From NCBI GenBank assembly GCA_026874595.1, contig CM049313.1:39956659-40020658 (forward strand): a stretch of 64,000 nucleotides of DNA, given 5' to 3'. The translations under genes were made by a program, and so were the position numbers. This DNA is from Sipunculus nudus. Lineage: Eukaryota; Annelida; Sipuncula; Golfingiida; Sipunculidae. Positions 1-21,989 of the stretch are shown here, in pieces. The notes below the pieces were generated by a model. It made no database searches and was not told where the DNA came from. It worked only from the letters and a program-made list of their open reading frames with translations. Each line of letters opens with the position of its first letter. Position 1 is the stretch's first letter.

Positions 1-2095
1 AGTTTAATCCTACCCCATGATTGGGAAATTAAGCAGTAAAACTGTGTCTGTCTAATGAACACTTGAGAAATAGCAATTTACGCAGTACCATTTGGTGAAA
101 GTATAAGCATTAATGGTCCATTATCCAAACTAGTGGTAAGTGCTCATAAAATGAAATAAATTGTCTGGGATGGGGTAGCCCTTAACACGACGCTTGTCAA
201 GTACAGGATGATCTCCTCAAGAAGGTCTTGTGCAGCCGTCTCGGAGAAAACTTCAAAGGTAATAGCTCTATCCATTACAAAACTTCTCTGCTAGATTCTG
301 GAACAAGCTTCTTTGCTCAACTTACAGCATTAAAACTTGATGATAACTGATCCATCCATTACAGTCTCAGAGACTAGATAAAGACCACATACTTCCTACA
401 CTATAAACCGATGCAAAACAATGACAGGCCTTAGAGAAAACCAGCCTGGCTTCCACTGGAATATTTAATGTGATTTTGCTACATTGATAATCACTGCCTA
501 TGAATTGTTAATGGCATTGTTTCACAGATTTCTACAATAATCTTTAGGTTAACACCAATATTTATGAAACAGCTATCTGCATTAACCCAGCTTACCAGAA
601 ATGATGTTGGATAAGCATTCCACATCTAGCATTAATTGTTAATGTCATTTTCAAAGTTGGCCTTGTTATACTTATTGAGTTTAAATTGGACAAAAACATC
701 CTCATCAATGGGACTGTCATTATGACTTACACAGTCTTAAAGATGTCACCTTGTGATGAGCTGGACATTGCAATTATTCAAATGTAGACACAAACAGGAG
801 ATGCCGTGGTACCGAGAATTAAGGAAAGCCAGAAAAAACATTCAGAGATGCTTAGGATTGGCTTAGTATGCTAGGCTATGGTACCATGAGCATTCCAGGG
901 GTTTCTGGCTGAACAATCTAATATTAATCAAAGCACAAAAGCTATGGCAAGACCTGATATATGATAAAAGACACTGCCACAGAATTAGTTTATGCATAAA
1001 CTTAATTTAAAAAAAAAAATATTGAGTTCTATAATTTACATTCAGGTATTTGTGATATAAGCTACTTTTAATCACTTATATCTGTAACTGAATCTGATCT
1101 AATATAAATGGAGTACCTTTACTGGGAGAAATTAGCTTAATACAGTTTTCCTGATTTTTTGGCTAAACTCCAACAAAGTGCTAAAGTGTACAATTAGGGT
1201 ATTAGTCCCCTAGAGTAAACTCATTCCTTCCCACCCTCACAGTAATTCTGGATCCACCCCTGACATATATATGTTTGTCAGGGTGAAGCAGAATCTGTAC
1301 ATCAGTGATGGTTATCTTATTGGTCTGTCTTAACAACAAGCGTGGCATCTAACCATTCAAAGTGACAAATGCTGGAAGCCGGAATATGCCACATCCATCT
1401 TGTATACAGTCAAATCGGTGTCCAATCTGAAGTAAAACGCCCTGACCCAAGACACAAAGAAGCAGGTCCTGCAACTTCTCATAAATCTGTGTGGTAAACG
1501 GAGGGATTCATCAGAACGCAGGAGACATTAAGGCCATCAGACTTGCAGAGACCGCTAGTGATGTATATTAGTCCTGAGGGAACCTTGGGATAGTGTTCAG
1601 AGTGCAAGGTCCACAGGCAATTATAAACACTGTGAAGAAAGTCTGGCCTTACCAAGCCAGACTCATTTGTCTTGAGCCTGTCTTGAAATCCAGATGGCAG
1701 CCCAGTCATATCTGAATCCTGTATTACATCCCCGTGTCTGGATCAGTCTGGAAACACCTTCATGACATCAGTTCCTTGTGTCATGCATCTCAAAGAAGCA
1801 GTGACTCAACACCTGTATTATCTTTTAAAGATTTCCATCTGTGATTCATTTAGTGTGTGATATGCCCGTATAAATGATACAAAAGTGTTACTTTTAGCAA
1901 CTCAAACAATTCATACCACTATGTATTAACAAAGAGGCCTACAGGCCTAATGCGAACCTGTGCAAAGTTTGAGAGTATGAATGTTTATTTTTAAAATTTA
2001 ATACTGATCCTCATGTCCAGCATATCTACCCTAGTCATTATGATTTCAGCCAAGTGGATGTTTCGGACCTGCACATTTTGGACTAGGACATTTTA
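1..2095. other. Intron sequence, no supported feature
   Basis: AT-rich, no splice-consistent Mint exon seen. A CpG-bearing patch at 190-260 reads as an open minus-strand frame (SETAAQDLLEEIILYLTSVV) but has no convincing donor and is not recognised. A minus-strand open frame at 1709-1479 is also unrecognised. Confidence 0.5.
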
Positions 2096-2109
2096 AAACT
2101 AGAATATGG

Positions 2110-5029
2110 GTGGTCTACAAGCGACCACATGTATCCGCTAAAATCGGAGTAGGACGGGTGAAGTTAGGCATGGATTGAGTGGCAAGGGGAAATATGTGTG
2201 CTGCATATTAGCATGGATGTCTGCAGCTAAAATGTGTATGTAGGTGGTGCCACCTACCAAAATATCCAGAAAGCTATCCAAGTTGTATACATATGCAAAA
2301 TTTTATGCAGATAAGTGAACCCAATACTTGCATATGCGTGATTTTATCCAACAGCAGACAAACAGAAGGATGCTGTGCAAAAATGGAGGCAGGTGGCGCC
2401 ACCAGTTTTGTGTATGATAAAGAGCTATGTGAGATCTATACACAGGCAATATTTAACAAGGCCTACAGGCCTAATGCGAACCTGTGCAATGAGATTACAC
2501 CAGGTATAATGCTTCAATGCTTGACCATTACTTTTCAAGAACTTGTGTAACATGTATATGAACAATGCAAGTACTAAACACTTAGAACAAGAAACAATTA
2601 AACAAACATTACTGCTGCAATTCTGGCATGGGTGCACACAACACAAAAACTAGAATATGGGTAGTCAACAAGCGACTACGTGTATCCTCCAAAATCAGAG
2701 TGGGAAAGGTGAAGTGAGGCACTGGATTGAGTGGCAAGGGGAAATAGAGTGAGGTGTGTTGCATAATAGCCTGGATGTCTGCAGCCTAAATGTGTATGTA
2801 GGTTGCGCCATCTACCACAAAATCCAGAAAGCTGTCCAAGATGTATAAACATGCAAAATTTTAGGCAGACAAGTCACATCACTACTGAGATATGACTGAT
2901 TTTAGCCCACAGCAGACAAACGGATGGACACTGTGCAAAAATGGTGGCAGGTGGCACCACAAATTTTGTGTATGATTAAAGTTATGTGAGATCTATAAAC
3001 ATGCAAAATTTCAGGGGGATATGTTAAACAAGTCCTGAGATATAAGCCTGAATGTTTGCAGCGTATACATAAATGTAGGTGGTGCCACCTGCCACAAAAT
3101 CTAGAAAGCATTTCAAGATGTATAAGACTACAACTTTTTAGGCAGATATGTCAAACCACTGCCGAGATATGAGTGATTTTATCCCACAGCAAACAAATAG
3201 ATGGATGCAGTGCAAAAATGATTGCAGGTGGCACCACCAGTTTGCGTATGATAAAGAGCTATGTGAGTTCTATAAACATGCAAAATTTTTGCCAAATCAG
3301 CCAAATGGTTCCTAAGAAATGAGCTTGGATGTCTGCAGAGTAAATTTGAATGTAAGTTGTGCCACCTGTAATAAAACAAGAAAGCTGTCAAGGATGGATA
3401 AACCTGCAAAATTCAGGTGGATAAGTCAAACCCAGCTGAGATATGAGTGATTTTATCCCAAGGCAGATGAATTGATGGAGGCTGTGCAAAAATGGTAGCA
3501 GGTGGCGCCACCAGTTTTGTGTATGATAAACAGCTATGGGAGATCTATACACATGCAAAATTTTGGCCGAACTGGTCAAATGGTTCCCGAGATACGAGCT
3601 TGGATGTCTGCAGCTTAGACTTGAATGTAGGTGGCGCCACCTGTCATAAAATCAAGAAAGCTGTCCAGGATGTATACACATGCAAAATTTCAGATGGATA
3701 AGTCACACCACTACTGAGATATGAGTGATTTTAGCCCATGGCAGACAAACCGACAGATGCTGTGCAAAAATGGTGGCAGGTGGCACCACCAACTTTGTGT
3801 ATGATAAACGGATAAGTGAGATCTATACACATGCAAAATTTCAGGGGGATATGTTAAACCTGTCCTGATATATAAGCCTGAATGTCTGCAGCATATACAT
3901 TAATGAAGGTGGCGCCACCTGCCAAAAAATCCAGAAAGCTTTCCAATTCCTGAGATATAAGCCTGAATGTGTGCAGCGTATACATAAATGTAGGTGGCGC
4001 CACCTGCCATTAAATCCAGAAAGCTATCCAAGATGTATAAACCTGCAAAATTTTAGGCAGATATGTCAAACAACTGGCGAGATATGTGATTTTATCCCAC
4101 GGCAAACAAACAGAGAGACGCTGTGCAAAAAATGATTGCAGGTGGCGCCAACGCTTTTACGTATCATAAAGAGCTATGTGAGATCTATAAACATGCAAAA
4201 TTTTTGCCCAATCAGTCAAATGGTACCTGAGACATGAGCTTGGATCTCTGCAGAGTAAATTTGAATGTAGGTGGTGCAACCTGTCATAAAATCAAGAAAG
4301 CTGTCAAGGATGTATAAACCTGCAAAATATCAGGTGGATAAGTCAAACCACTGCTGTGATATGAGTGATTTTATCCCAAGGCAGATGAACAGATGGATGC
4401 TGTGCAAAAATGGTTGCAGGTGGCACCACCAGTTTTGCGTATGATATAGAGCTATGGGAGATCTATACACATGCAAAATTTTGGCCCAACTGGTTAAACG
4501 GTTTCCGAGATATGAGCTTGGATGTCTGCAGCTTAAACTTGGATGTAGGTGGCGCCACCTGTAATAAAATCAAGAAAGCTGTCCAGGATGTGTACACATG
4601 CAAAATTTCAGATGGATAAGTCCAAGCAATGCAGAGATATGAGTGTTTTTATCCCAGGGCAGACGAACAGATGGATGCTGTGCAAAAATGGTTGCAGGTA
4701 GCGCCACCATTTTTAGTGTATGTTAGAAAGCTTTCCAAGGGCTACATTTGTGCAAAATCTTTAGCCAGATTGGTCAAACAATTCCAGAGATATATGGGTT
4801 TATGTGTGGAAACAGACACACAATTGGACGCTGGGCAGAGAGGAAAAGTCAGAGTTCATCAAAAAATAAGGGTACAGCAGTTCACATGTGACCCGATCAT
4901 AATTCTGAATTTTATAAAATTCCGCCCAGTGGTTAAGGAGGAGTTCTCCAGAAATCTATGCAGCTGCTGTGGCAGCGGCGGCAACCAACTGAAAACATAG
5001 TATTCACGAACTCTGTTTTGGCGGATACA
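2110..5029 (+). mobile_element. Palindrome-box element, family A (composite, two 5' ends)
   Basis: Two 5' ends are seen: hairpin GTGGTC/GACCAC at 2110-2128 followed by TATCCGCTAAAA, and hairpin GTAGTC/GACTAC at 2661-2679 followed by TATCCTCCAAAA. The stem change (GG/CC to AG/CT) is compensatory. There is one 3' end at 5001-5027, a hairpin whose right arm is GTTTTGGCGGATA. The body is made of diverged units that alternate GGTGGCGCCACC boxes with stretches such as gatgtctgcagc, atgcaaaatttcag, gagatatgagtgatttta and gctgtgcaaaaatgg. No transposase reading frame is present; short open frames here are repeat artefacts. A second copy is at 47940-49121. Confidence 0.8.
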
Positions 5030-5286
5030 ACTTGGATGTATCAGTCAGGATATTTCCAATATGTTCTTTTTGCCAGGGAGGGATATTGGGACAGATGAAT
5101 GGACCATTTGGCAGCATGGTTTTGGAGACAACAAAAATTTTAAAACTGTTTTTTTAGCTTTTCCCTTTAAAATCTAAGAACAAGTTCCTTTTTTAGCCTT
5201 GGTATTGAGTCACACCTACTCATGCATCCTGGCAATGGAGGCTCAGCTTTCCCTCAAGTCAAGAGTACCTAATGTGGCAAATGTAA

Positions 5287-5343
5287 CCGAACCACTGGCT
5301 CTTACAGACTGAAACTTACCACTGGCTCTTACAGACTGAAACT
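5287..5343 (+). repeat. Short direct duplication
   Basis: ccactggctcttacagactg followed by aaactt is repeated twice about 27 bp apart. Recent slippage product in intron sequence. Confidence 0.85.
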
Positions 5344-5795
5344 TTACCTGTTGACAAATCTGAAATGGTTGGCAGTCTGCCAAAGTTGTTAATAGATACA
5401 GAGCGTAACTTGAACAATTGTAAAATCTGACACAATTGTCAGGTTCTAGACATCTAGAAGTCTAGACACATGGTCTAGTCTGTATCTGGACACCTGGCAG
5501 AGCCAAGTCAGTTGCCATGGTGATGTCTGGACTGCACCCATCTGCAATGATTGACCTCTTGACCTGACATGTTGAAACTTGTCATGCTGCCAAATATGTT
5601 TTCAAACAATGAAAGCCTTTTCAATTGGCTACACTGCTTTTTTAAAGCTGCATTTACCCAATCTATTCTTATAAAACTGACAGAATAATACCATAGAACA
5701 ATTCTTGTAAAGTTAAAACCAATCAGCTTAACAGTTTCTTAAAAAATACAGTGTATAAGCTAGAAGAGTCTACACTTACATTTTGGCTTGTAAAA

Positions 5796-6790
5796 AAACA
5801 GATCAACGTAGGTGGTGCCACCAACACCTCAATTTCAGATATGACTCATGTGACACACATTGGCATAAAATTTTGGGATGACAGCTCCAGCTGTTTCTGA
5901 GTTTAAGTTTAGTATGCTTTTTTGCACAGATGACTAAGTTAAACCTCCTGTAACTTGGCCAAAAATCACCGAACTGGAGCCATTCAAACAAATTTGCGAG
6001 AGATTGTTCTAGGGATCATTCTGTGAAATATTGGACAATTTTGCTGGAAAGTTTTGGAGAAGAAGATTTTTATATCTATTTTAACTTTTCCTTTATAAAA
6101 ACTGAAGATTAAATTTTTATATCTATTTTTAACTTTTCCTGTATTAAATCTAAGAAAAATCACTAAATCAAAACCATTTGAACAAATTTGAATTATCAAC
6201 ATCTAAGGATAATTCAGGAGTGAGATTAAAGATTCTGACCCATTGGTTTTTGAGAAGAAGATCTTTGTAGCCACTGAGCAGAAATGGGCTGCTATAACAT
6301 TTGACTATACTCAGCTTCCCATAACTCGGCCAAAAGTTATTGAACAGAGACCATTTGAACAAACTTAAGAAAGCACTACCATATGAGCATTTCTGTGCAA
6401 TATTAAACAGTTTGGCTTTATGCTTTTAGAGAAGTTGTTTTTTGCAGCCCTCTGTATGCTTCAAGCACCGTTGACCCCCCTTACAAAAACACCAATGCAG
6501 GTGGTGCCATCAATACCTCAATTTCAGATACGTTTCATGTGACCAACATTAACATAAAATTTGATGATGATAGCTCCAGCGGTTTCTGAGATTGTAATTT
6601 TAGCATACAAATGATTAAGTTCAACTTCCTGTAACTCAGTCCAAAATGACCTAACTGGAATCATTCAAACAAACTTGAGAGAGATTGTTCCAGGGAACAT
6701 TCCTATTAAATATTAGACAATTTGGCTTAACGGTTTCAGAGGAGTGGATTTTTTAAAAGTTTTTAAGCTTTTTCTCTATAAAATCTTAAT
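5796..6790 (+). repeat. Diverged direct duplication with ggtggtgcca boxes
   Basis: Two copies of a roughly 260-bp sequence, 5805-6060 and 6494-6740, share caatttcagata-g-.tcatgtgac, ataaaattt, gctccagc.gtttctgag, and gagagattgttc.aggga. Each starts with aggtggtgcca, a degenerate form of the box in families A and B. The stretch between holds a further internal repeat (tttttatatctatttt-aacttttcct) near 6065-6145. Likely an old relative of family A or B; no termini were identified. Confidence 0.6.
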
Positions 6791-8026
6791 TAAAGCAGAT
6801 ACCCAATAATAAGCTCTAGGGCACCAAGTTTCACATGTGACTAATTCTAATTATATACTTATATGATACACAGATCCATAGAGGGCAGATGAAATGTAAT
6901 TTTATTGTCCAGCTTTTATCAAGCATGCTGTACATGGGCCTAGAAGAAATATATTTTATTTTTGCTGTTTTTTCTTCCATTAATAGGATTATATAATCAC
7001 CTTAAAAGACTATTTTCATGCATGACATCAATATATATGTATGGTAAATATTGCATTTCAATTTTCAATCATGAGATTGACCCCAAAGTCTGTAATGTTT
7101 GATGTGCACTTCAATGAGCAGAAACAGGGGGCATCTAAGGATTTTCTATACAACCTTCAGTGAAAAAGCACACCCTGAGTTCTGGCTGGTTGATAATTCA
7201 ATGTATGCCTGGAGCTAAGATCTTTCCATGACTAACAGTTTTCTTGTAGAATAATTTTTTTTGTAACTGAAACCAACTCCCACCACAAAGAATCAGTATC
7301 CTACACAGACCTGATTGATGTGAGACTACTGATAAATCAAAGAATCTGTTTTTGGACATTTTACCTAACAAAGGACAAGCTCGTTATTCTCACATTCTCA
7401 TCAGCTGGCAATCAGAACATGGGAGTTCTTTCACACCAACATCAGAGGAAAACGAGTGCTTCATAAAGTGTTCCCACAGCAATCAGGTAATGGATAACCT
7501 GAGGAGATCATAAGCGTAATCATGCGGTACCTGTCTGTTCTCTCTACCGCCATTCTGGTGTATGAGTAAAACAGATGGAGCAACGGCTCTGGTGGGTGCA
7601 TGCTATTGGCCTGCAGGTAAACTCAACCAAATTCAATACTGTGCACTTTGTGGACCTCATATTCCCGGAGGACCTCTATTACTGGCCTCTGAGGCAGGAT
7701 AAACTATTATCCTATTGGAAGATTATCACGCTTCCTCAACCACGTGACGGAGCCAAATATTATTAATTTGTCTGGGTCTGTCTTGGGATGTGGTTAAACC
7801 TGCAGAATCTTTTGTTCTCAGATTTCCATAAACTGCACCCAGGTGGTCATTTATGATTTATGGAGCTTGTAAAACTAAAAGAGTATTTTTTTTAGATTGA
7901 ACATTTACCACCATGAACACAGATCTACCAAAAGTGGCAAAACCTTCCAAATCATCTTTGACAAAAATTGATGCACAGAAATAGGTTCCTTTCTGTGTCT
8001 AGAGTAGCTTAAACTAGACATTTCTT
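6791..8026. other. Intron sequence, no supported feature
   Basis: No repeats with clear termini and no coding signal. The 7510-7770 part is somewhat GC-richer, with a 63-codon plus-strand open frame that is not recognised. Confidence 0.5.
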
Positions 8027-9232
8027 GGCACCGCTGGTGCCATAGTATTGCCAGACAAATGAGGTTTTGTGGTATTTTGTTGATATAATGTGATGTATTT
8101 GTATTTTAGCAATGAATGTGAGAAACATTTGTACAAAATATAGGAATATTTTGGATTTGGAAGGACAATTGATCAAAGGGTTTTTGACTGATAATGCTCA
8201 CAGTGCTGTCAAGTGGCCCTTTTTAAGATATTCATGATTTTATGTTTTTCACCAAATATGGGAATATTCAAGGTCAGGGTCACTCTCATAGTCACGGTCA
8301 TGACCCCAAATCAATAAACTGCATTCCAAAATATCCAACATTTGAAAAAAAAAAATTAAAATTAAAAAAAAAATAATTTAAATTAAATTAAATTTTAAAA
8401 TTAAATTTAAAATTAAATATACCTCATTCCATAAACCATATCTATATACATGCATTACATGAAAGAAATTTGTCCATTACTGTTTGACTTATAATGCTCA
8501 CAGTATATACTCTCAAGTGGCAATGATGGGGTATTCAAAGGCACAAAAAACAAGAAAAGGACAACAGGTGGCGCCACCTCACTTCTGCAAAAGACAAAAC
8601 TATCCAAGATCTTCAGTCAACTTGATTTTTGGACCAATCCATGCATCCCTTTTTAAGATATTCATGATTTTATGTGATTTTCACCATATATGGTAATATT
8701 CAAGGTCAAAGCCACTCTCAAAGGAAAGGTCATGACCCCAATTTTAATATACATCATCCCATAACCCATACCTATGTACATGCATAATATTAAAGAAATC
8801 TGTCAATCAGTTTTTGACTTGTGATGCTAAAAGTACTGTCAAGTGGCAATGATGGGGGTATTAAACGGCACAAAAACAAGAAAAGGATACTAGGTGGCAC
8901 CACCAGTTTCCGGTACATGACATCACTATCCAAGATCTTTGTCCAACTTGATTTTTGGATAAATCCATGAAAGATTTCTTGAGATATTTAAGAATTTGTG
9001 TGATTTTCCCCAAAAATGGATCTATTCAAGGTCAAGGTCACTCTCCTAGTTGAGGTCATGCCCCATTTTAAATAGGCTTCGCCCTGTCACCTATATCTAT
9101 AAATGTGTCAAGTTTGAAAAAGATCCTTGAAATATTTTTTGAGTTATTGTGTCCAAAAGAAATCTCTGCGGCGGCGGCGGCGGCGCAACCGTGCCTAAAC
9201 CATAGTATCTCCAGACTATGTCTGGCGATACA
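8027..9232 (+). mobile_element. Non-autonomous element, family B
   Basis: The 5' end is a hairpin GGCACC/GGTGCC with loop GCT (8027-8041), then TATTGCCAGACA at 8046-8057. The 3' end is a hairpin at 9206-9230 with arms TATCTCCAGAC and GTCTGGCGATA, preceded by a (CGG)n run near 9170. The body has three diverged tandem units starting near 8193, 8480 and 8810 (gactt.taatgct, then ctcaagtggcaatgatgggg, aggtggc.ccacc, caaggtca..gtcac). An AT-rich patch at 8344-8420 lies inside. Non-coding. Confidence 0.75.
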
Positions 9233-9370
9233 ATTATTGCCATTAAACTATATGTTATATGAGCTACATGTGGTAATTATTTACATGGACATGGCAAATT
9301 TTGACCAATCAATGTCTGGTTAACTTGGAGAACAAGTATAACCTAGCCACATCTTTGACCTTCCATGATG

Positions 9371-9574
9371 GAGACTACATGAGCTGCTGACTCACCTGTA
9401 AGTCTGTGTTGAGGACTACATGAGCTGCTGACTCACCTGTAAGTCTGTGTTGAGGACTACATGAGCTGCTGACTCACCTGTAAGTCTGTGTTGAGGACTA
9501 CATGAGCTGCTGACTCACCTGTAAGTCTGTGTTGAGTAATACATGAGCTGCTGACTCACCTGTAAGTCTGTGTT
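9371..9574 (-). repeat. 41-bp tandem repeat made from an exon-intron junction (5 copies)
   Basis: Five near-identical units of 41 bp lie at 9371-9410 (one base short), 9411-9451, 9452-9492, 9493-9533 and 9534-9574. Each unit has the last 15 exon bases (AACACAGACTTACAG) and the first 26 intron bases (gtgagtcagcagctc then atg). The real exon end is in the unit at 9534-9574, so four extra 5' splice sites occur, with last exon base at 9519, 9478, 9437 and 9396. Because 41 is not a multiple of 3, using 9519 shifts the frame, and longer versions read into a stop. Confidence 0.93.
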
Positions 9575-9646
9575 GAGGACCATAATCTTTTCCGTAGAGA
9601 CAAAAAGATCAACCTCTGTGCTGGGCTGGTTCTCACCCTCAGGGGC
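9560..9646 (-). CDS. APBA: APBA PTB domain, second exon in window
   Basis: The acceptor is ttccgtgttaccag and the donor is TTACAG|gtgagt. It is exactly 29 codons in phase 0 at both ends. It encodes APEGENQPSTEVDLF, then VSTEKIMVLNTDLQ, matching the Mint PTB loop and strands after the first helix (family pattern APEGE-QP-TEVDLF-ST--I-VLN-D-Q). It directly follows GRIK of exon 21838 in phase. Its last 15 bases and the adjacent donor form the unit of a 41-bp tandem repeat, so four further copies of the donor lie just downstream. The next exon is outside the window. Confidence 0.93.
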
Positions 9647-11640
9647 CTGGTAACACGGAAACATACATCATGTATGTATCAAAATGTAAAATAAAATAAA
9701 ATAAAAAAACAGCAGCTCACCAACTGCTGTTGACACCAGCTTTCTTCTGTTATAAACACATTTTCTAAAATATTAAGGAAAGGTTAGTAATAAAATGATG
9801 AACCCTTTTACACATTTGTGAATCAATTGCCCAATAAACTGAGAAGAATATTAAAGTTCTCAATTGACTATTTTCATTAACGTAAAACATATCATCACAG
9901 CTTGCACCTTTTGAATTCAATTTAATTAATCAGAATGTGAAGTTAATGAGAAGTATAACTGACAGAGCATTTGAACTGAGCTTGGTAGTTTTTTTCTACA
10001 TGTCAAAGGCGAATTCCTATGGTTCTAAATAACTATTAAATTCCTGTTTTTCATGATTTAACACTTTGCCAAGTAATTTTTATAAATTACATTATTTCAG
10101 TTTAATCACCAAAAGATATGAGAAAGTATATATAAAACTGCAAAATCCATACACAACTTTGAATATACAAACCTATGCTTTAATACTTTACTAATTGCTA
10201 ATTCCATCAATATTATACTCTGTTGCTAAAATTTAAATAATCTTTATCTAAAAAGTGGTTCTCCGTTTTGCCTAGTAAAGTTACTTGGAAAATCTCAGCC
10301 CAAAGATAAAAATCAAATTAAATCAATATGCTCCTATTTGCAAAATAACAATGTTACATCCAAAAATATTACCGTGGGTCAAAAATATAAATGATCTCAC
10401 AGGTTTCAGACTCTTTCATTCAGGTATTACAAAGAAAACTCATGCAAGATTGATAATGTATAAATCACATTCTAATAAATATAAAATAAATTCTCTAAAA
10501 AGACCACAATACTGACATGAGCTGTAAAAGACAACAGAGTTTGATTATCATCACAGAACATGATAAATTCGCTTAGCACATGTCCACTGAACACTGGCTT
10601 TACAGTAACTACGAGTATACATATATAAACCAAAGTAACTTATGTCACTCAAATAATATGGTACAACACTGATGTGTCATTCATTATACATTAACAAATA
10701 AACATATCTAACACCTACAAAGCTTAAAATCAGGCATGTGACACACCTATATAAACTGGGCTTCTTAAAATTTAAATCTATATATATATAATGTAAAAAG
10801 CATTCTAGCAAAAAAAAAGCTTTGCTAACACATTGATAAATATGCAATCAACCAGTGCACACAAAAATAAGAACTGCTATGCTATATAATGAGCACTATA
10901 AAAAAATATATAGTAAAGGTTGAAGTCCTGGTATATAATATGTCCACAGAAAATTCAACCATGACAATTATATATCCATCTGATGTCAACAATGCTACAA
11001 ATGGATTGACTCAATGTAACGGAGTAAAGAACAGCCACATTTACTGGCAGGGATCTGTAACAGGGTAGCAGGTGACATCCCTCACTATTGTTTTTTAATC
11101 TTAATCATTGCACAGGAATTTGTAATCAATACCTGGTCTCAATATTTTGAACCAGATGCAGTTGCCAGTGAATACAACGCCATCTGCGGTTGGTAATGCA
11201 AACTAGTTGCAGAGCTGCCAGCTGGAGGAAACCTGCCTTGATGCAAACTTCAATATGGGTTTACTGGCTTTTTACAACCTTGGTGACTTAAGTTCCTTAA
11301 AATGATTTCTTGATTGTAGATAATTTATACAAGATTACTGGAGGAAGAATCACCATTCTGAATACTGATTAACTTTGATACACAACCTTTTTAGATCCAA
11401 ATTTGGAGATGGAATGATGATAGTGAAACTGAAATAACATAAATAAATATGAAAACAGCCTTGGTGCAAGAAAAATTTGCTGAAATTAAATCTTGCACAC
11501 TAAGATGACATGAGCAATATATGGATCACATAGTGAACGAGCAGGAGGGATAAATAGAAAGAAAACAGCTCAGTAGATTCAAAGCACAGACGGAAAAACA
11601 TCGGTCATGCCATGATACAGCGTGGAGATGAGGGCCTTAC
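9647..11640. other. Intron sequence, no supported feature
   Basis: Very AT-rich with scattered TATA-like microsatellites. Nothing coding seen. Confidence 0.55.
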
Positions 11641-11655
11641 CGACAGCGCGTTCCC
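11641..11655 (-). CDS. Candidate 15-nt microexon (GNALS) within the PTB-coding region
   Basis: On the minus strand, ...aaagaaagctcag is followed by GGGAACGCGCTGTCG and donor gtaagg. Fifteen bases in phase 0 would add Gly-Asn-Ala-Leu-Ser at the GRIK/APEG junction, alone or after the Ala-Ser microexon at 18430. Its two CpG dinucleotides stand out against the CpG-poor intron. The upstream tract is less pyrimidine-rich than usual, and a competing AG five bases earlier would give a 20-nt, frame-breaking version. Confidence 0.35.
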
Positions 11656-11814
11656 CTGAGCTTTCTTTGATACACAAGAGAACAGCAATGGTTAACTGTG
11701 GGTGTTACATGCCTTCTACACTACCCTAGTCAAATCATGGTCCATCCACTAAGTCATGTGTCATGTTAGTGACACACTGTACCCATCTGATGTTACTGCC
11801 AAACCTTGATGGCA

Positions 11815-12590
11815 CATATCTGATGTTATTTTGTATCATTATGTCTGGTATTATCCCATAAGTTCAGTGACACAGATGTATGATATTATCCCATATCATT
11901 TATATCTGATAATATTCCCAAGCCTTAATGGCACATGAACCTGATCTTATTTGTATCATTTATGTCTGGTATTATTCCTTAACCTTAATGACACTATTCC
12001 TTAACCTTAATAACACTGTCTGATATTTTCTCATATCATTTATTTCCGATGTTTTTGCCAAACCATAATGGCATGTCTGGTGTTATTTTGTATCATTTAT
12101 GTGTGGTATTATTCCATAATCTCAATGACACAGGTATGTGATATTATTCAACATCATTTATGTCTGTTATTCTCCAACCTTGATTGCAGAAGTGTCTGAT
12201 GTTATTTCATATAATTTATGTCTGGTATTATTCCATTACCTTAAAGACATAGATTTCAGATTTCTGATGTTATTTCATACCATTTATGTCTGATTATATG
12301 ACATAACCTCAATCAAAAAGGTGTAAAATGTGTTCACCTTTTAACATGCATTCTAATCAAGCTTAAGTTTCTAAAATATATGCATGCATGCATTATTGAT
12401 ATGCAGTTTTAATTGTCAGTGATATTAGCCACTGGCGTTAATTGTTTTTTCAAACTGACATGGAATGTAGTATGTTATGACATTATTCCATATGATTTAT
12501 GTTTGGTATCATTGTGTAACCTTAATAACATAGGAGTCTGGTGCTATTTTGTATAATTTATGTCTGGTATTATCCATTAACCTGAAGTGT
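11815..12590 (+). repeat. Degenerate ~60-bp tandem repeat
   Basis: Units of roughly 55 to 65 bp with the pattern tctgatgttattt-.atatcatttatgtc and tggtattattccataacctt-aatgacaca recur about ten times with much divergence. AT-rich, with no coding potential. The array lies between the candidate microexon at 11641 and family E. Confidence 0.65.
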
Positions 12591-13435
12591 TTTGATAATT
12601 TAAGAACAAATGTATCTGATTTTATTGAGAACTTGACTAACTCAGGTATCTGTTGTTTTTTCATACCATAGGTGGGTGTCTTACATGTTACCATCACAGT
12701 GTTGTATCATCCAGTTATGACGTATTATACAGACTTCTGTTTCCTTCAAAGACTTCCATTTATTTGATATAAATTATAATCCTTGCAAAAAGAAAATGTT
12801 ATGTTTTTTTTCATCTATGTAAAATGAATAATGTTGAACTTTCCCTAACACTGCTAGAAACAGGGAAATATCTTCCTCTTTCTTTAAGAATTATTTCCAA
12901 TGAACCAAAGATAACACACTTGGTTTTAGGTAGCACTTGTGGTGCCATCTACCATGATTCACTGAACTAACATGTTTTCAGTTATACCTGACATCTGTTT
13001 AAACCTGTGTTGTCTGCAGGATAAATGGCAAGTTAATTTGATTTTTTTAAGAATATTTAAAATACAAATGATAAATATACCACAACAAAGGATTTATTAT
13101 GCATCCTGTACTGATCATTTTTAAGAATGAAGTCCAGACTAGACTGACCAGTTTATAGCCTCACATATTTCTTTATTGTATTAACTTTTCTCTAGTACAT
13201 AGGATTTAAATATTAATATTTAAAGAAGCTAAAAATGGAACTTAGATGTAAGAATGTATATATGTCAAACTGTGTGAATATAAACAATTTGGTGGCCAAG
13301 TTCAGGAGTGTACAACACTGAATTAAAGCTAACTTTTCTACACTTTAACATTTGATGTCTTGCTTTAACAGACTGACACAGCCATGAAATTTCTATAGAT
13401 AGTTTCTATACTAATGTCTTATTGAAAAACTAGAT

Positions 13436-15143
13436 GTGTCGGAACGACACGAATGCCCCCGCCTTGGGCAAATTAGAAACATTTGTAAAATTTGGAAAAT
13501 TTTTTAAGTTCAGGAGGTGTTGTATGGTCAAAAGAAGGTCAACAAGGGCAAAATGCAAACTCGATCTGTAACGGGTCATTATCAAGCAACACATGAAAAG
13601 TCATGCCAGTATATGCAGGCATTGTGAAAAAAAGTCCATACATGTGCATTTTCCATAAAAATTTCTGTCTTTCATGAAATTTTCTATGTTTAGGATCCGT
13701 AAAACAATCAAAAGTAGGACAACCAGGATGAAACGCAAACTCAATCTGTAACTGTCATTATCTCCCCACACAAAAAAAATCAGGGTGGTATCTGCAGGCA
13801 CTGCGAAAAAAAGTCCATACATGTGCACTTTTTTTATGAAATTTCCTATGTTAGAGCACCGTCAAACCGTCAAAAATAGGTCAACTGGGACAAAACGTGA
13901 ACTCCATCTGTAACTGGTCAATATCTGCCGACACACCAAAAATCAGGCCAATATCTGCAGGCACTGCGAAAAAACGTCTGTACATGTGTATTTGTCATGA
14001 AATTTCATATTTTTCATGAAATTTTCTATGTTCAGCAGCCGTAAAACGGTCAAAAGTCAACCGGGACAAAACGCGAACTGGATCTGTAACTGGTCTATAT
14101 CTGCCCACACACCAAAAATTAGGCCAATATCTGTAGGCATTGCGAAAAAAAGTCCGTACATGTGTATCTGTAATGAATATTTCTATTTTTCATGAAAATT
14201 TCTAAGTTTAGGAGTCGTAAAACGGTCAAAAGTAAGTCAACCAGGAAGAAACGCGAACTCGATCTGTAACTGGTCTATATCTGTCCACACACCAAAAATC
14301 AGGCCAATATCTGCAGGCATTGAGAAAAAAAAACTGTACATGTGTATTTGTCATGAAATTTCACATTTTTCATGAAATTTCCTATGTTAGAGCACCGTCA
14401 AACCGTCAAAAATAGGTCAACTGGGACAAAACATGAACTCCATCTGTAACTGGTCAATATCTGCCGACACACCAAAAATCAGGCCAATATCTTCAGGCAC
14501 TGCGAAAAAAAGTCTGTACATGTGTATCTGTCATGAATATTTCTATTTTTCATGAAATTTTCTAAGTTTAGGAGCCGTAAAACGGTCAAAAGTAGGTCAA
14601 CCAGGACGAAACGGGAACTCGATCTGTAACTGGTCTATATCTGTCCACACACCAAAAATCAGGCCAATATCTGCAGGCATTGCGAAAAAAAGTCCGTACA
14701 TGTGTATCTGTCATGAATATTTCTATTTTTCATGAAATTTTCTAAGTTTAGGAGCCGTAAAACGGTCAAAAGTAGGTCAAGCAGGACGAAACGCGAACTC
14801 TATCTGTAACTGGTCTATATCTGCTCACACACCAAAAATCAGGCCAAATCTGCAGGCATTGCGAAAAAAAGTCCGTACATGTGTATCTGTCATGAATATT
14901 TCATTTTTCATGAAATTTTCTAAGTTTAGGAGCCGTAAAACGGTCAAAAGTAGATCAACCGGGACGAAACGCGAACTCCATCTGTAACTGGTCTATATCT
15001 GCCCACACACCAAAAATCAGGCCAATATCTGCAGGCATTGCGAAAAAAAGTCCGTACAACTGTTTAATTTCGGAATGAAGGAAGGACGGAATGACGGACA
15101 TGGGTAAAACTATATGCCCCGGCCACTTTGTGGCGGGGGCATA
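13436..15143 (+). mobile_element. Non-autonomous element with ~180-bp tandem core, family E
   Basis: The 5' hairpin GTGTCG/CGACAC with loop GAA is at 13436-13450, then ATGCCCCCGCC at 13453-13463. The 3' end is a 31-base hairpin at 15113-15143 with 14-base arms TATGCCCCGGCCAC and GTGGCGGGGGCATA around TTT, preceded by gaaggacggaatgacggac. The core holds about eight units of roughly 180 bp (starts of cgtaaaacggtcaaaa-type segments near 13698, 13860, 14040, 14216, 14396, 14575, 14756, 14936). Later units are more alike than earlier ones, which suggests recent unequal expansion toward the 3' end. No coding capacity. Mollusc elements with a satellite-like core are known. Confidence 0.82.
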
Positions 15144-15270
15144 AAAACGTGTCCCCAAAAATGCAAACTAGCAGTGCTCTATTGAGCAACCTCAAGTTGA
15201 AAATATTACAAAAACATTAAAATTTATCAAATCGGTATATGAGGAAAATCAGAAACAGTGGTATCGTAAA

Positions 15271-16466
15271 GGTAAGTGTATGTAACAGTAGGATCATAAT
15301 GGTAAATGTATGTAACAGTTGGATCATAATGGTAAATGTCTGTATCAGTAGGATCATAATGGTAAGTGTATGTAACATTAGGATCATAATGGTAAATGTA
15401 TGTAACAGTAGGATCATAATGGTAAGTGTATGTAACAGTAGGATCATAATGGTAAATGTATGTAACAATAGGATCATAATGGTAAGTGTATGTAACAGTA
15501 GGATCATAATGGTAAGTGTATGTAACAGAAGAATCATAATGGTAAGTGTATGTAACATTAGGATCATAATGGTAAATGTATGTATCAGTAGGATCATAAT
15601 GGTAAGTGTATGTAACAGTAGGATCATAATGGTAAGTGTATGTAACTGCAGGATCATAATACTAAATGTATGTATTAGCAGGATCATAATGGTACGTGTA
15701 TGTAACAGCAGGATCATAATGGTAAGTGTACGTAACAGTAGGATCATAATGGTAAGTGTATGTAACAGTAGGATCATAATGGTAAGTGTATGTAACAGTA
15801 GGATCATAATGGTAAGTGTATGTAACAGTAGGATCATAATGGTAAGTGTATGTAACAGTAGGATCATAATGGTAAATGTTTGTAACAGAAGGAGCATAAT
15901 GGTAAAAGTATGTAACAGTAGGATCATAATGATAAGTGTATGTAACAGTAGGATCATAATGGTAAGTGTATGTAACAGTTGGATCATAATGGTAAGTGTA
16001 CGTAACAGCAGGATCATAATGGTAAGTGTATGTAACAGTAGGATCATAATGGTAAGTGTATGTAACAGTAGGATCATAATGGTAAGTGTATGTAACAGTA
16101 GGATCATAATGGTAAATGTCTGTAACAGAAGGAGCATAATGGTAAAAGTATGTAACAGTAGGATCATAATGATAAGTGTATGTAACAGTTGGATCATAAT
16201 GGTTAGTATATGTTACAGTAGGATCATAATGGTAAGTGTATGTAACAGTAGGATCATAATGGTAAGTGTATGTATCAGAAAAATCATAATGGTAAGTGTA
16301 TGTAACAGTAGGACCATAATGGTTAAGTGTATGTATTAATAGGATCATAATGATAATTGTATGTAACAGTAGGATCATAATGGTAAGTGTATGTAACAGT
16401 AGGATCATAATGATAAGTGTATGAAACAGTAGGAGCATAATGGTAAATGTTTGTAACAGTAGGAGC
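15271..16466 (+). repeat. 30-bp minisatellite, about 40 copies
   Basis: The unit is ggtaagtgtatgtaacagta followed by ggatcataat. It is in perfect 30-bp register from 15271 to about 16320, then shifts by one base. Because 30 is a multiple of 3 and the unit lacks stops in some frames, long open frames of 276 to 366 codons appear on both strands (for example repeated TIMILLLHTL on minus); these are artefacts, not genes. Block 15871-15950 recurs at 16111-16190, exactly 8 units apart, showing multi-unit duplication. Each unit has a splice-donor-like ggtaagt on the plus strand, antisense to the host gene. Confidence 0.95.
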
Positions 16467-16559
16467 AAATAAGAACTTAAGTATGTGCACACGTGTGTGT
16501 TAAATCATTGCACCTAATCAACACACAAGTTGTACATTTAGCTTGGTACTCTTTCCTAT

Positions 16560-16575
16560 TACACCAGGGGGCTAA
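16560..16575 (+). promoter_or_regulatory. CTCF-like site beside the 30-bp minisatellite
   Basis: acaccagggggctaag resembles the bilaterian CTCF core (CCASYAGRKGGC). It lies 95 bp right of the minisatellite in a short CpG-bearing stretch (16560-16690) that otherwise shows no recognised function. A single motif match is weak evidence. Confidence 0.25.
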
Positions 16576-16699
16576 GATGGAGATGAGGAGCACAAGACGG
16601 CACCGAGGAGAAGTGTTCCGAAATAACACCAGTACTGACCACACAGGGTTTACCGCAAACTATTCAAGGTGGTTCACGGGGACAGCTAGCCACTACAAT

Positions 16700-18424
16700 A
16701 CAGCCATGAAAAATCAAACAAATAAATAAATAAAGATAAATCACAGAAGCTCTGCAAACTAAACTAGCAACAGCTATACATACATATAAATATAAAGGTA
16801 TGTATACACTGGTGAACAAGTATACTGAACTACCTTGAACCTTTTGCCAAAATACAGAGTACCAAGCGCCTGCATGGGTGATGAGAAAAATACATCGCTA
16901 CATTCAGTGACACTGGGAAGTTGATACATCAGTATCGCAACAGTTTTAACTTATCTCATACACCTGTATATAATCAGCTGGTCCACATGAACAGATATGC
17001 AAGTACACCCTACAGAATGCATGCTCCTTGCTAAACTCAAACACGGTGACAGTAAATATATACATGTAATGATCAATACTGACTAACACAAATTTACATT
17101 ATTTTTGCATATGCAAATGACCTTATGAATATGCATTTCATCTGGAAGGCCATCAACTCCTTTCTACATTGGTGGTTGGCTACACAGCAGGCATATAACT
17201 TGACATATATAAGGCCAGTTTGTAGACATTTCTCAGCAAGTATAGCCTTATTAATACAGCAACAATCATTTTCTCAAAATGTTGAAAGTGGTTCAGGTGT
17301 CAAGAGGATATTAATTTTCCAAATTTCTCACTATTTCTCACATACAGTTTAAATTAAGAACAGAATTAAACCTGCAAGTGCTAAACAAGCTTAACATTGT
17401 CAAATCATGCTCCCTCTCACTTAGTATATTATCAATAATAGATATTTTTTTATAGTTTGTATAACTGCTTAGATATACAAATTTTCATTGTCAAGAAGTT
17501 GCCAGTGGTAAAAAGCACTGAGCAACTTTCCCTTCATATACCACAAATAATCAGTTTAGTGTTGTAACTATCAACCAGATGTTAGGCCATATTGCCATAA
17601 AGTAGTTTTTGGAAGCACCACAGAGGGCAGCACCTGATGGTACCAACATTTGATGAATGACGTAATGGGTGTACCCGGTTTCTCAAGGGGTAAGCATCAA
17701 ATATATGAAACAGTTTTATATGTGAGGTAATGTTGAAAATTAACCTGGCATTCAATTAATAAGATATTCCAGCAATTCTTTAAAAGGGAAGTATCACTAT
17801 ATGAATAATCCAAAAGAATTATCAATTAATTTTAATAGCAAAAAAAAAAAGTCTTATCCCTCACAACATGCTGACTGAATGAAGTGACAAGTCAATGGAA
17901 CTTCATGTCAGACACTGACTGGATGCCATATTTATTCTCAAATAAATTTTCAGCAGAAAGACACCATCAGGTGCTGTAACTTCATAAAGAATCATTGAAA
18001 TCCATCAAGAATAACAATAACGAGTTTGAATACAATGTTTCATTCTAAATGATCAGAAAGTGCATACTGTTCTGTCACTGAAACTGAACAGAATGTTTTA
18101 ATTATACTGAGGACAACTGGGAACTGCATGCCAGAATGGATGGACAATTAAAGAAATGAAAGACATGCTTTGTTTTAACAAATGGCATGGCATGCAGCCG
18201 GTCTGCAAGTCTGTTTAAATCTAAGTATAAAATGCAACAAACATCTGCACACATTATGACTATCAGTGCAAGGGGCTAATTAAATCATTTAGGTCCTGAA
18301 TTATAATAAACAATAAAACATACATACGTATATATGTGGTAAATACATATACTAAACTCTATATATGGGAGATTACGACAACAAGCTGACTGCAGCACAT
18401 TGAGAACGAAGCATGCCGACTTAC
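16700..18424. other. Intron sequence, no supported feature
   Basis: AT-rich. No repeat termini or exon-like frames beyond the candidate microexon at 18425. Confidence 0.5.
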
Positions 18425-18430
18425 CGAAGC
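18425..18430 (-). CDS. Candidate 6-nt microexon (Ala-Ser) within the PTB-coding region
   Basis: On the minus strand, a good polypyrimidine acceptor (cctactctctctcaag) is followed by GCTTCG and then a consensus donor gtaagt. Six bases in phase 0 would add Ala-Ser between GRIK and APEG without changing frame. The same junction in vertebrate Mint proteins carries an optional short insert, as I recall, which favours a real alternative microexon. Six-base exons arise by chance easily, so confidence is moderate. Confidence 0.4.
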
Positions 18431-19384
18431 CTTGAGAGAGAGTAGGATCATGGGATAGAGAACAGTACGATAACCATGTCAAACAGTTGTGCCATGCGAC
18501 ATTGTTACTGATAAACCCAGTTAAATCAAGATTGTAATATGGTTGTAATAAGCTGACAGGTGCCCCAGTGGCTGTGATGGGCACTCAGATAATCACAGTG
18601 GCGTCTGGTGAGAAGGTCAAACTAATTATATCTTAAACTGTACACCTGATCACTATGTGCTCGTTAAGATAAAATCTAGGTTTGTAGGTATCATGCATGA
18701 ACTAATTAAAATGGTGTATTCATTAGAACTATCAGAAAACAATCGGATATCTTTGAATAATATGATTGTTGGGATTTACAGTAACACAGCTTTTGCTGCT
18801 CAGTGCCATCTAGTGATAAATGAATAAGATTAATAAGTTTTTTTTACATCACTTACTGTTATCATAAGTAAGCTTGAAGCATATTATATTTCACTGCAGA
18901 GAAAATACTGATATCAACGTCTGAAATCAATTTAACTATATGTGGAGCCTTTATTCAGTATGAATGTGGTGCTCACACGTTACATGTTTTACTGAATGAA
19001 CTCATGATGGCTCTGAGATGTAGAAGCAGTATCAACATTATTAATAATGAAAATGTTTTTTTAGGTTCCCAATTTCACTGAGAGAAGAACTCATCATAAT
19101 GTTTTTTGAGACACAGAACATTATTTGTAAAGAGGGGACAAATATGTGAGATTTCCTATACATTACATAACAAAAACATTCCTGTTTAACAAAGGGGAGA
19201 GGAAACTTAGCCTGTTATCTTTCTCTGGGGACATTTTGGCCAACCTAAATGAACAACCATTAACTTTGCACTATGGTGACCAAATGTTTCTTTCCAAATC
19301 TTGTGCAGCACCTAAAATGTGATTGTAGCTTAAACAAACAGTTTACATATTGTTTACAAACAGCCCTCCTGTCATTATACAAAG

Positions 19385-19996
19385 ACATTCAAACATTTAA
19401 ACACACATTCACTCTCCTATCAGATATACACACCCGCACATACACTAACCATTCAGACATTTACATACTTTCACTCTCCATTCAGAAATTAACATACACA
19501 TACATTCTCCATTCAGATATTTACATGCACATTCACTTTCCATTCTAACAACAACACACTCAATCATTCTCCATTCAGATAACTACATACACATTCACTC
19601 TCCATTCAGACATTCACACACATTTACGTAGACTCTCCATTCAAATATTTATGCACACATTCATTCTCCAATCATACATTTACATACATTCACTCTCAAT
19701 TCAAACATGCACACGCACATTCACTCTCCATTCAGACATTTACATACACATTCAATTTCCCTTCTAACAACCACACACACATTCATTCTCCATTCAGATA
19801 ATTACACACACATTCACCTTTCCTTTCAGACATTTACACACATGTGCATACATTCTCCAAAAAGAAATTAACACACATTTGCTCTCCATTCACACATTTA
19901 CATGCATTCACTCTCCATTCAAACATCCACAACCTCTCATTCACTCTCCATTCAGACATTTAAACCAACATTCACTCAACATTCAGACACTCATTC
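19385..19996 (+). repeat. Degenerate CATTCACTCTCCATTC-rich tandem repeat
   Basis: Repeats of about 30 to 40 bp built from cattcactctccattcagac and atttacatacacattc fill this stretch. The strand is strongly pyrimidine/adenine biased with almost no G. A 91-codon open frame at 19273-19548 overlaps it and is judged spurious. The array ends exactly at the hAT element insertion. Confidence 0.8.
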
Positions 19997-20004
19997 ATTA
20001 TCAA
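19997..20004. repeat. hAT target-site duplication, left copy
   Basis: ATTATCAA, identical to 20853-20860 on the other side of the element. Confidence 0.88.
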
Positions 20005-20852
20005 TAGTGTTGGGACAATATGGGTTTTTGATATCATGATAATTATTCAAATTTTATCACGATATACCGTGATATCGCGATATTTTCAATTATATATAAT
20101 GGCATTAATAAGCCATCAATAATGATATTTATAACAACCACCTTTAAAGTCTTGACTTTATACAAGGGGTTAAGTATTAATATAATTTATACCTATTGTG
20201 CCAGTACCACGGAATGACTCATTAAGTGATGTAAGTTGCATGAAGGTCCTGCAGGTGCGCAAGCTTGAGGCGCGGGAAGTCCTGCCCCAATCGTTGAATC
20301 ACGCTTGTCAGAACTTTCCATCAGTTTCCTTTAGCTACATAAAAGCCGGAGAATCCCGGCGAATTTTCGGAGAGCGTGTCATATGAATCTTGGCTAAATA
20401 TATCATCTCAATTTTATATGGCAAAATATGCAACCCGTATGGAATGTTCGATTCAGTGGTGACACTTTTATGTTGACATTTTCGTTCCATGCAATAAAAG
20501 CATAAATGTGTGTATTTATTCCTCTTTCATTATAATGTTTTTTTCTCCTGGAATTCTCAAGCTTTTGTCCTTTCTGATTCATTCTGCTACTTCCGGACAT
20601 TTCCGACTAATCCCGAAGTCTGTAAGCACACGCTTCCACCCACACGCGGGTATTCCAATACACGTGGTTTATGAAAATAAATGCGATTCTTTGAAATAAA
20701 TTTATTTTGAACTTCAAGGGCTTGCTTGTGAACCAAAATGGTGAACAAAAATTGATATTGTGATATCGCGATAATAGGAAAGTTGATGGTATGATAACCG
20801 TAGCGGTCAGATATCGTGATATTACCGTATACCGGTAACCATCCCAACCCTA
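20005..20852 (+). mobile_element. Non-autonomous hAT element with 8-bp target duplication
   Basis: The element starts TAGTGTTGGGA and ends TCCCAACCCTA, imperfect terminal inverted repeats of hAT type. It is flanked by the direct repeat ATTATCAA at 19997-20004 and 20853-20860, the 8-bp target duplication expected for hAT. Subterminal TATCGCGATA palindromes occur near both ends and could bind transposase. The interior (about 20190-20660) is less AT-rich, with many CpGs and a splice-like or gene-like texture (gaggcgcgggaagtcctgcc), but no recognised protein, so it may be captured host sequence. At 848 bp it has no transposase. Confidence 0.88.
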
Positions 20853-20860
20853 ATTATCAA
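20853..20860. repeat. hAT target-site duplication, right copy
   Basis: ATTATCAA, identical to 19997-20004. Confidence 0.88.
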
Positions 20861-21837
20861 ATTATTCAATGGAAAGAATTTTCACATATTGTATGGGGAT
20901 CCAATTCTCCTGTTCAAATCATGGCAAAAGTTTAGATGACCAGTTAACTGTCTATGTAATATATTCCACAGCAACATTTTACTGGAATCTAAGGATTAGA
21001 CTTTAAATCCACAAGGATATCAGAGAAAACACTCTGTGGCAGTTGGAACATATATTATATTTAATAAAACCCCTGGCAGTGTCAAACACTAAACTATTAA
21101 ACAACATGTTTTTGAAGTGAATATGTTGCACTTAACACAGTGAATGGACCATGAATGACTACAGATAGAACATGATGCTCACTGCATCAGTACATAAATC
21201 AACTAGTAGCACCCTCACAAACTCCCATGTTATACAGGTAATGATATGTTAAAACTGAGAGTGAAATACTAAAGAGAATACATGACTTGTCTAGTGATTA
21301 TGTGTGAGAGATACAGGGATATATTACAAGAAAGAGGAGTACATATAGAATTAGCAGTGGTGTCATAATTACCTTTTCCTTCAGTTACCTTCAAGTCTTA
21401 TAGTTATACTACAGTGGCATCACTTACATCACATGACCTGCTTGATAAAATACTGTCATAAAGACACACTTTTTATAAGTTTCACCATTTCAGCTGGGCC
21501 ACCTGGTCATCATAGAGAGCAATTACAAACCAGAAGCAAATATAAATGTAATATATGCAACTATGTTTTCATACTACAAATCATGACAAGCATGGACATA
21601 TAGCTTGTCTGATAGAATACTACTCATGAAAAGTTAAAATGTCACAATCTTGGAGATTTTGAATTTCCATAACCTTCTTATAAGATGTTATACAATATCA
21701 CTTAGCCTTTCAAAAGATGCTGAAGTAATTTTGATGGATACATCATGTGATACAAGTGAGCCAATAGAAAGGTAGGGACCTCAGTCTGAAAAGATCATCT
21801 GATACCATATTAACCAATAGAAAAAGAGGAGCCTCAC
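20861..21837. other. Intron sequence, no supported feature
   Basis: Immediately downstream (gene direction) of PTB exon 21989-21838. Nothing recognised. Confidence 0.5.
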
Positions 21838-21989
21838 TTTGATCCTGCCCACAGCTTCTTGTGCCTGCATCATCCTCATGGCTTTAGAGGGCTGACCCTC
21901 TGAGATGAGCTGAGTCGAGCCCAGGTAACGAGCTCGGAACAGAACTCCCTCGATAAGGACTGTGTCATCATCAGGGTCACGCAAGGTCA
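21838..21989 (-). CDS. APBA: APBA PTB domain, first exon
   Basis: The acceptor is tatacttacag and the donor is AGGATCAAA|gtgagg. It is 152 bp: 2 bases completing Val, then 50 codons, ending in phase 0. It encodes the start of the PTB fold: acidic lead-in DPDDDT, strand beta-1 with the PTB hallmark [13 protein letters not shown], then the helix [14 protein letters not shown]. The YLGSTQL and [10 protein letters not shown] motifs are diagnostic of the Mint/X11 family rather than other PTB proteins such as Numb or Fe65. This is the anchor for identifying the gene. The peptide-binding half of the domain lies in later exons. Confidence 0.95.

Follow-up and report, generated by a model that had tools for sequence, protein, structure and literature searches.

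What does a gene do with a splice donor that is present in five tandem copies at the end of one of its conserved exons, and is such an arrangement peculiar to one gene? The question is raised by an exon of a Mint/X11 gene on the minus strand of a 64,000-nucleotide stretch of DNA (here called the window, in which all positions without a contig name are counted). We therefore examined the repeat, its host gene, the predicted consequences of using each donor and the occurrence of similar arrays in the genome (1.43 Gb in 153 contigs of a single assembly).

TRF reported a 41-bp unit present in 5.1 copies with 97% matches at 9373-9580, and script reading placed the starts of the copies at 9577, 9536, 9495, 9454, and 9413. 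Copies 2 to 5 are identical over 41 bp; copy 1 differs by two mismatches near its 3' end (TATTA versus TAGTC in copies 2 to 5). Every unit (5/5) carries a consensus donor in the context CTTACAG/GTGAGT (the slash marks the junction), and CAG/GTGAGT follows 9560, 9519, 9478, 9437, and 9396, exactly reproducing the last exon bases given in an earlier note on this DNA. The five donors are identical from -18 to +20. TRF and script reading thus agree with that note's view of a conserved exon's donor amplified fivefold into identical, evenly spaced copies, that is, a natural series of equal sites. Its unit of 41 bp and its five copies also stood, while the span had to be corrected to 208 bases (9373-9580). 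This length is 5 x 41 + 3, because GTC at 9580-9578 recurs at 9375-9373; as GTC is common to both ends, the proposed split into 15 coding and 26 intron bases can slide by 3. A 3-bp microhomology of this kind would be expected from slippage or end-joining duplication. Sequence, translation, and X11 structure matches together describe a tandem minisatellite that begins at the 3' end of an exon.

A genome search with a 27-base core of the unit, allowing up to 3 mismatches, gave five matches, all inside the Mint array, and none for the reversed control; the unit is therefore neither a chance match nor a dispersed satellite, and both candidates were rejected. The 401-base segment around the array likewise has one genome match. 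Other tandem repeats occur in the window. A 30-bp unit in 40 copies (15254-16464) can be read through for over 300 codons on each strand (15221-16339, plus; 15217-16212, minus) and looks like a satellite array without stops. Arrays of an approximately 277- to 278-bp unit with similar unit text lie at two distant places (2768-4722 and 48102-48885) and perhaps represent one satellite family. A 43-bp unit is repeated 19 times with 93% matches at 46214-47038, and four copies of a 51-bp unit with CTACAG/GTAATA lie at 25513-25719 on the plus strand, opposite to the Mint gene.

The exon at 9646-9560 translates as APEGENQPSTEVDLFVSTEKIMVLNTDLQ and aligned with PTB structures of X11/APBA1 (4dbb, residues 2-29 of 29, E = 4.3e-8; 1aqc, 1-29, E = 1.4e-7). 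The three joined PTB exons matched the PID profile at E = 1.5e-29, and a PF00640 match at G000:C8:39978490-39978597 supports the upstream one. Judged by this homology and by the phase-0 join with the neighboring PTB exons, the host gene is Mint/X11 (APBA). A search of the genome with the Mint protein found the three PTB exons with one match each, and a Mint paralog or pseudogene as carrier of the array exon was rejected accordingly. The exon is short (87 nt) and lies between introns of 12.2 and 16.4 kb, the latter spanning 16,377 nt between the first donor and the PTB exon that follows. The features are listed in Table 1.

Table 1. Features of the Mint/X11 locus and of exons preceding donor arrays elsewhere in the genome
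Feature	Position	Strand	Basis
41-bp x 5 tandem array with 3-bp GTC microhomology	9373..9580	minus	TRF and script reading
Unit 1: exon end and first donor (GT 9559-9558); differs at two positions	9537..9577	minus	script reading
Unit 2: donor after 9519; its GTGAGT gives the in-frame TGA (9517-9515) reached by forms 3-5	9496..9536	minus	
Unit 3: donor after 9478; identical to units 2, 4, and 5	9455..9495	minus	script reading
Unit 4: donor after 9437	9414..9454	minus	script reading
Unit 5: donor after 9396, the intron-proximal one	9373..9413	minus	script reading
PTB exon APEGENQPSTEVDLFVSTEKIMVLNTDLQ, 87 nt, phase 0 at both ends	9560..9646	minus	PDB X11 matches; PID profile
Intron upstream of array exon, 12,191 bases	9647..21837	minus	interval between the flanking exons
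Upstream PTB exon of the same Mint/X11 gene; ends AAA/GTGAGG, phase 0	21838..21989	minus	exon ends read from sequence; Mint protein search
Downstream intron, part within window; continues to next PTB exon at G000:C8:39949840	1..9372	minus	
Next PTB exon, outside window, 165 nt; begins in phase 0, itself ends at a donor	G000:C8:39949676-39949840		
TOM20-like copies sharing an exon-end donor array	L079 G000:C3:9233800-9235400; L080 G000:C3:9250000-9251600		
TOM20 (L018)			solved-structure alignment, query 7-57 of 57, E 6.5e-18
TFIIH p52 (L032)			solved-structure alignment, query 15-48 of 48, E 5.6e-10
XPD (L021)			solved-structure alignment, query 1-31 of 31, E 3.6e-7
ABCC2/MRP (L010)			solved-structure alignment, query 2-59 of 59, E 8.7e-10
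Axonemal dynein intermediate chain 3 (L027)			solved-structure alignment, query 1-42 of 42, E 6.5e-12
HADH (L012)			solved-structure alignment, query 1-41 of 43, E 8.2e-8
M1 aminopeptidase, ERAP2 (L023)			solved-structure alignment, query 14-59 of 60, E 7.5e-9
Kunitz (L022)			Pfam
LRR (L017)			Pfam

When the exon was joined to the actual next exon, only the form spliced at 9560 kept an open frame, in agreement with the earlier claim that the first donor alone is in frame. The forms from 9519, 9478, 9437, and 9396 run into a stop after 15, 14, 14, and 14 extra residues, close to the approximately 15 codons proposed before. Donor 9519 adds VSQQLMYYSTQTYRK and then a stop, and the three donors beyond it add VSQQLMYYSTQTYR and stop at the TGA in the GTGAGT of the second unit. 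Stops located sufficiently upstream of the last exon junction lead to nonsense-mediated decay (NMD). The stops of the later-donor forms precede the end of the next exon by 158 to 284 nt, and this end is itself a donor, so that a later junction follows the premature stop in all four forms (4/4) and NMD is predicted for each of them.

The array had so far been seen as a single curiosity, but the same architecture recurs at other conserved genes. We searched the genome for three CAGGTRAGT donors at 30- to 59-nt spacing and obtained 965 matches versus 294 for the reversed control; a search restricted to GTGAGT gave 483 versus 117. A genome-wide enrichment of donor triples is not claimed from these raw counts, because two long arrays make up most of the control list, and control arrays outnumbered donor arrays, four to two, over the initial 76 Mb of C1. 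Single sites numbered 26,386 for the donor and 19,427 for the control. The matches listed, roughly 100 per search in genome order up to C4:22.9 Mb and C8:8.0 Mb (the Mint array lies beyond both), were grouped into 35 arrays (L004 to L038). Among these 35, the first donor often closes a coding exon on the donor strand, and in 9/35 this exon has homology to a known protein or domain (Table 1). The alignment reaches the last residue before the donor for TOM20, TFIIH p52, XPD, ABCC2, and the dynein chain and comes within two residues of it for HADH and the M1 aminopeptidase. A further seven arrays looked coding by eye (L005, L008 [PH, E = 0.023], L011, L014, L025, L030, and L033). The solved-structure search with eight array exons matched seven and gave no match for L025. 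Pfam left five of the first ten array open reading frames (ORFs) without a match, among them L021, which was afterwards placed as XPD by structure. XPD, TFIIH p52, and TOM20 are essential, as known from work in other organisms. The number of gene copies was examined for Mint, TOM20, and TFIIH p52: TOM20 has two copies, and the p52 exon matched in full at one place in the genome, while its nine further matches, all weak, fall in its own array (eight) and elsewhere (one). The occurrence of the same architecture in other conserved genes therefore points to a mostly tolerated intronic repeat rather than to a control device specific to Mint.

Two of the genes with an exon-end donor array, those for XPD and p52, encode subunits of one complex, TFIIH, which is probably a coincidence. 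In the ABCC/MRP-like gene, the 42-bp units at L010:1966-3697 are in frame and stay open for several copies, each reading approximately VSRRTIVILYFFIQ, and many of them show a pyrimidine-rich stretch before CAG/GTAAGT. From their sequence, these extra units could be added in frame or serve as recursive splice sites.

As a control, 40 isolated CAGGTRAGT sites from the start of C1 were treated like the arrays. The 35 arrays and the 40 isolated sites each yielded 33 ORFs of 25 or more residues, every one of which was scanned against Pfam, with the ORFs of L017, L004, and L009 scored at a common length; the solved-structure searches covered the arrays only. At E <= 1e-3, 7/35 arrays (L010, L012, L017, L018, L022, L023, and L032) and 4/40 isolated sites (L050, L072, L074, and L075) had a match, a difference that is not significant (Fisher p = 0.33); one of the four control matches, to a SCAN domain, may stem from a mobile element. 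By unblinded eye, 16/35 arrays versus about 9/40 controls (L050, L060, L067, L068, L069, L071, L074, L075, and L078) looked coding (p = 0.049), which is too soft a basis for claiming a preference. Hence, a real exon end is found at the start of an array at least about as frequently as at a strong donor sequence. This outcome fits a birth of minisatellites that is blind to exons, with no sign of exon-end protection in the comparison and without an established enrichment. Among the control sites, L057, L058, and L060 (G000:C1, ~1.777-1.794 Mb) lie within about 17 kb on one strand and contain similar exon-end-like pieces (...SNDYIPxSYEQ...), which we take to be cullin-like, with donor-like sites.

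We then compared unit length and donor conservation across the exon-anchored arrays (n = 17; 16 chosen by eye plus Mint), taking TRF periods as unit lengths, except for L030, where the length was set from the read spacing. No selection on frame was seen in this set, as 5/17 units are multiples of 3 versus 5.7 expected. Reading on from the exon, a stop occurs before the fourth strong donor in 15/17 arrays; in L010 and L011 (both 42 bp), the frame stays open past several donors. Conservation of the donor 9-mer was assessed in 20 of the 35 arrays, which we chose as having enough alignable copies and all of which had been selected for intact donors. In the 13 exon-anchored arrays among them, identity of the 9-mer was higher than that of the rest of the unit in eight, equal in one, and lower in four; in the other arrays, it was lower in 7/7. 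The 9-mer is thus relatively better kept at exon ends (mean rank, 0.41 versus 0.74; p = 0.017, post hoc), a difference that strict neutrality does not predict, although intact donors had been a selection criterion for the arrays. Within these 20 preselected arrays, nothing pointed to selection against the later donors of exon-end arrays; if anything, the result may lean the other way.

The TOM20 pair provided information on how long such arrays can persist. The second exon lies 16 kb from the first, and both have an array beside them, with 9.1 copies of a 50-bp unit (89% matches) at one and 6.1 copies of a 48-bp unit (75% matches) at the other. The exons differ at 18/144 bases with one amino acid change (dS = 0.68, dN = 0.019 over 48 codons). 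In the printed sequences, read by eye, later units of the second copy are closer to the units of the first copy than to their own first unit. This likeness suggests that the array is probably older than the gene duplication; alternatively, the copies were made alike by gene conversion afterwards. Since both members of this diverged pair have the array, such a repeat can be retained next to an exon on which strong purifying selection acts.

The array, its reading frames, its single locus, its recurrence, and its presence at two diverged TOM20 copies were established directly. Most likely, the Mint repeat is a young minisatellite in the intron, with the first donor making the functional mRNA. 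In this reading, a 41-bp segment comprising the last ~15 coding bases of the PTB exon and the start of the intron would have been duplicated in tandem at the GTC microhomology, and further units would have been gained later. The exon itself would have remained unaltered, since the original donor stays first in the row and the four extra copies lie in the 16.4-kb intron. Functional mRNA would come from donor 9560, while use of any later donor would interrupt the PTB domain with a stop codon and target the mRNA for decay. An 87-nt exon between introns of more than 12 kb would be recognized as an exon, and its first donor would be the earliest made and the closest to the upstream acceptor. The most likely causes of its choice are exon definition, operating across short exons, and a first-made-first-used order; on these grounds we infer that the first donor wins in practice. 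The Mint array would then be one member of a recurrent class of strong-donor arrays that start at the ends of conserved exons. For this joint explanation, i.e., tandem duplication with unit gain, functional mRNA from 9560, and a largely tolerated minisatellite of a recurrent class, we estimate a probability of about 0.66.

Instead of being tolerated, the array could tune Mint levels through NMD, as the earlier note suggested; in such a rheostat, donors 2 to 5 would take a steady share of transcripts, all with a premature stop, and the number of units would set the level of functional Mint mRNA. The four later donors do lead to stops 14 to 15 codons past the normal end and before a later junction, and the donors are identical from -18 to +20. 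Furthermore, U1 is described as protecting ~23 nt upstream and 12 nt downstream of a donor (PMC6002489), and the 41-nt spacing exceeds this 35-nt footprint, so that all five Mint donors could be bound at the same time. However, XPD, TFIIH p52, TOM20, and HADH are very different genes, and the presence of this architecture in all of them suggests that it is tolerated and not a control specific to Mint; unit lengths also look random with respect to frame. Both points make the rheostat unlikely. Still less probable is that the array heals itself, with the AG of each ...TTACAG/GTGAGT unit serving as acceptor and the GT as donor, so that extra 41-nt units would be removed as tiny introns or by recursive splicing and the same mRNA would result. 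AG/GT is present in every Mint unit, intron gain by tandem AGGT duplication is known (PMC4974935), and a case with several 24-nt repeats is described in fission yeast, with AGGC as proto splice site (PMC3629103). Against this, the candidate acceptors contain 53 to 59% pyrimidines, compared with 59, 65, and 82% in three real acceptors of the gene; an upstream ACACAG would compete; and 41 nt is very short for an intron.

RNA structure was considered as well, because the junction GACTTACAG/GTGAGTC is nearly self-complementary, and in the transcript (GACUUACAG/GUGAGUC) units might pair and mask donors two by two. Pairing of units 1 and 2 is predicted with a probability of ~0.5, and units 3 and 4 pair in the minimum-energy fold, but the whole region folds no better than shuffled sequences (z = 0.45) and all five donors are predicted to be mostly closed. 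Predicted openness of positions +1 to +6 in the five-copy fold is low throughout, at 0.007 for the first donor and 0.04 to 0.08 for donors 2 to 5; if anything, the first donor being the least open in this model would count against the use of the first donor. Exact ACTTACAGGTRAGT pairs at such spacing occur elsewhere at one place in the genome, and therefore RNA structure cannot explain the class. We consequently rejected it as donor selector, as a very improbable explanation. Equally improbable is an assembly artefact with only one or two units at the true locus. Units 2 to 5 are identical and a single assembly was used, but unit 1 differs from the others, a single read would easily span the 208-bp array, and other genes have diverged arrays built in the same way.

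The closest precedent of the Mint array is the human 6-16 (G1P3/IFI6) gene, in which a minisatellite reportedly provides multiple splice donor sites (Turri et al., 1995). The unit there is ~12 bp, and that of Mint is thus much longer (41 bp). Two downstream repeat units of IFI6 are used as donors, and three mRNAs are described (PMC4526556). As in IFI6, each Mint unit carries a consensus donor and the donors would compete in a row; unlike there, donor use at Mint is predicted from sequence, and every later donor breaks the frame. Tandem AGGT duplication has been described as intron gain for ATP2A1, a potato RdRp gene, and Schizosaccharomyces SPOG_01682/SOCG_00815 (PMC4974935, PMC3629103). The Mint copies share with these the proto splice site (AG/GT), in principle both acceptor and donor, and with the fission yeast case the presence of multiple copies, but they extend an existing intron, whereas a new intron arose in coding sequence in those genes. 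Variable internal tandem repeats in human segmentally duplicated genes (on average, 30-bp units x 4) alter gene structure, and some lie at exon-intron boundaries like the arrays described here (PMC2812944). Those repeats belong to recent primate gene duplicates; in contrast, the present arrays reside in old, conserved genes, with a stop before the fourth donor in 15/17. Competing 5' splice sites are described 33 nt apart in ER-alpha exon 1 and 11 nt apart in DOK7 intron 4 (PMC6002489, PMC5585400). Here too, comparable donors lie close together and whether the product is functional or altered depends on the choice, but two donors compete in those genes and the normal one is intron-proximal, whereas Mint has five identical donors with the functional one intron-distal. 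Passages of PMC12783039, PMC3045353, PMC2915984, and PMC7492417 deal with intronic or dispersed repeats and do not describe exon-end donor arrays. Beyond these systems, no other description of such arrays was found in the literature searched, a scope outside which most subscription papers fell. A minisatellite with several donors, AGGT intron gain, and exon-boundary minisatellites are thus already known, while no published account was seen of arrays recurring in conserved genes or of one shared between TOM20 copies.

Of two comparable donors, the intron-proximal one is described as favored, for a reason that is not known, and SRSF1 is described as favoring proximal and hnRNP A1 distal donors (PMC6002489, PMC5585400). 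At Mint, the intron-proximal donor is 9396, which gives a stop-containing form, and this counts against the first-donor explanation. If the proximal preference held, most Mint mRNA would carry a stop, and most other exon-anchored genes would face frame or stop problems; these genes would function most simply if the first donor were used. We therefore propose, tentatively and with somewhat more doubt than confidence, that the recurrent class in conserved, partly essential genes (Mint, XPD, TFIIH p52, TOM20, HADH, and others) may reflect a spliceosome that reliably picks the first, intron-distal donor out of up to 20 or more near-identical ones, by synthesis order or exon definition and not by donor strength. 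If true, this choice would run opposite to what is described in human systems, where the intron-proximal donor is preferred. In this class, donors that are identical or nearly so follow one another at fixed spacing, in three or more units per array, and hence provide a test of first-donor versus intron-proximal choice, in which the product of these genes reveals directly which donor was right. Moreover, an exon-end minisatellite that persists beside a conserved exon, as in the TOM20 pair, matters for annotation, since such exons are easily mis-ended.
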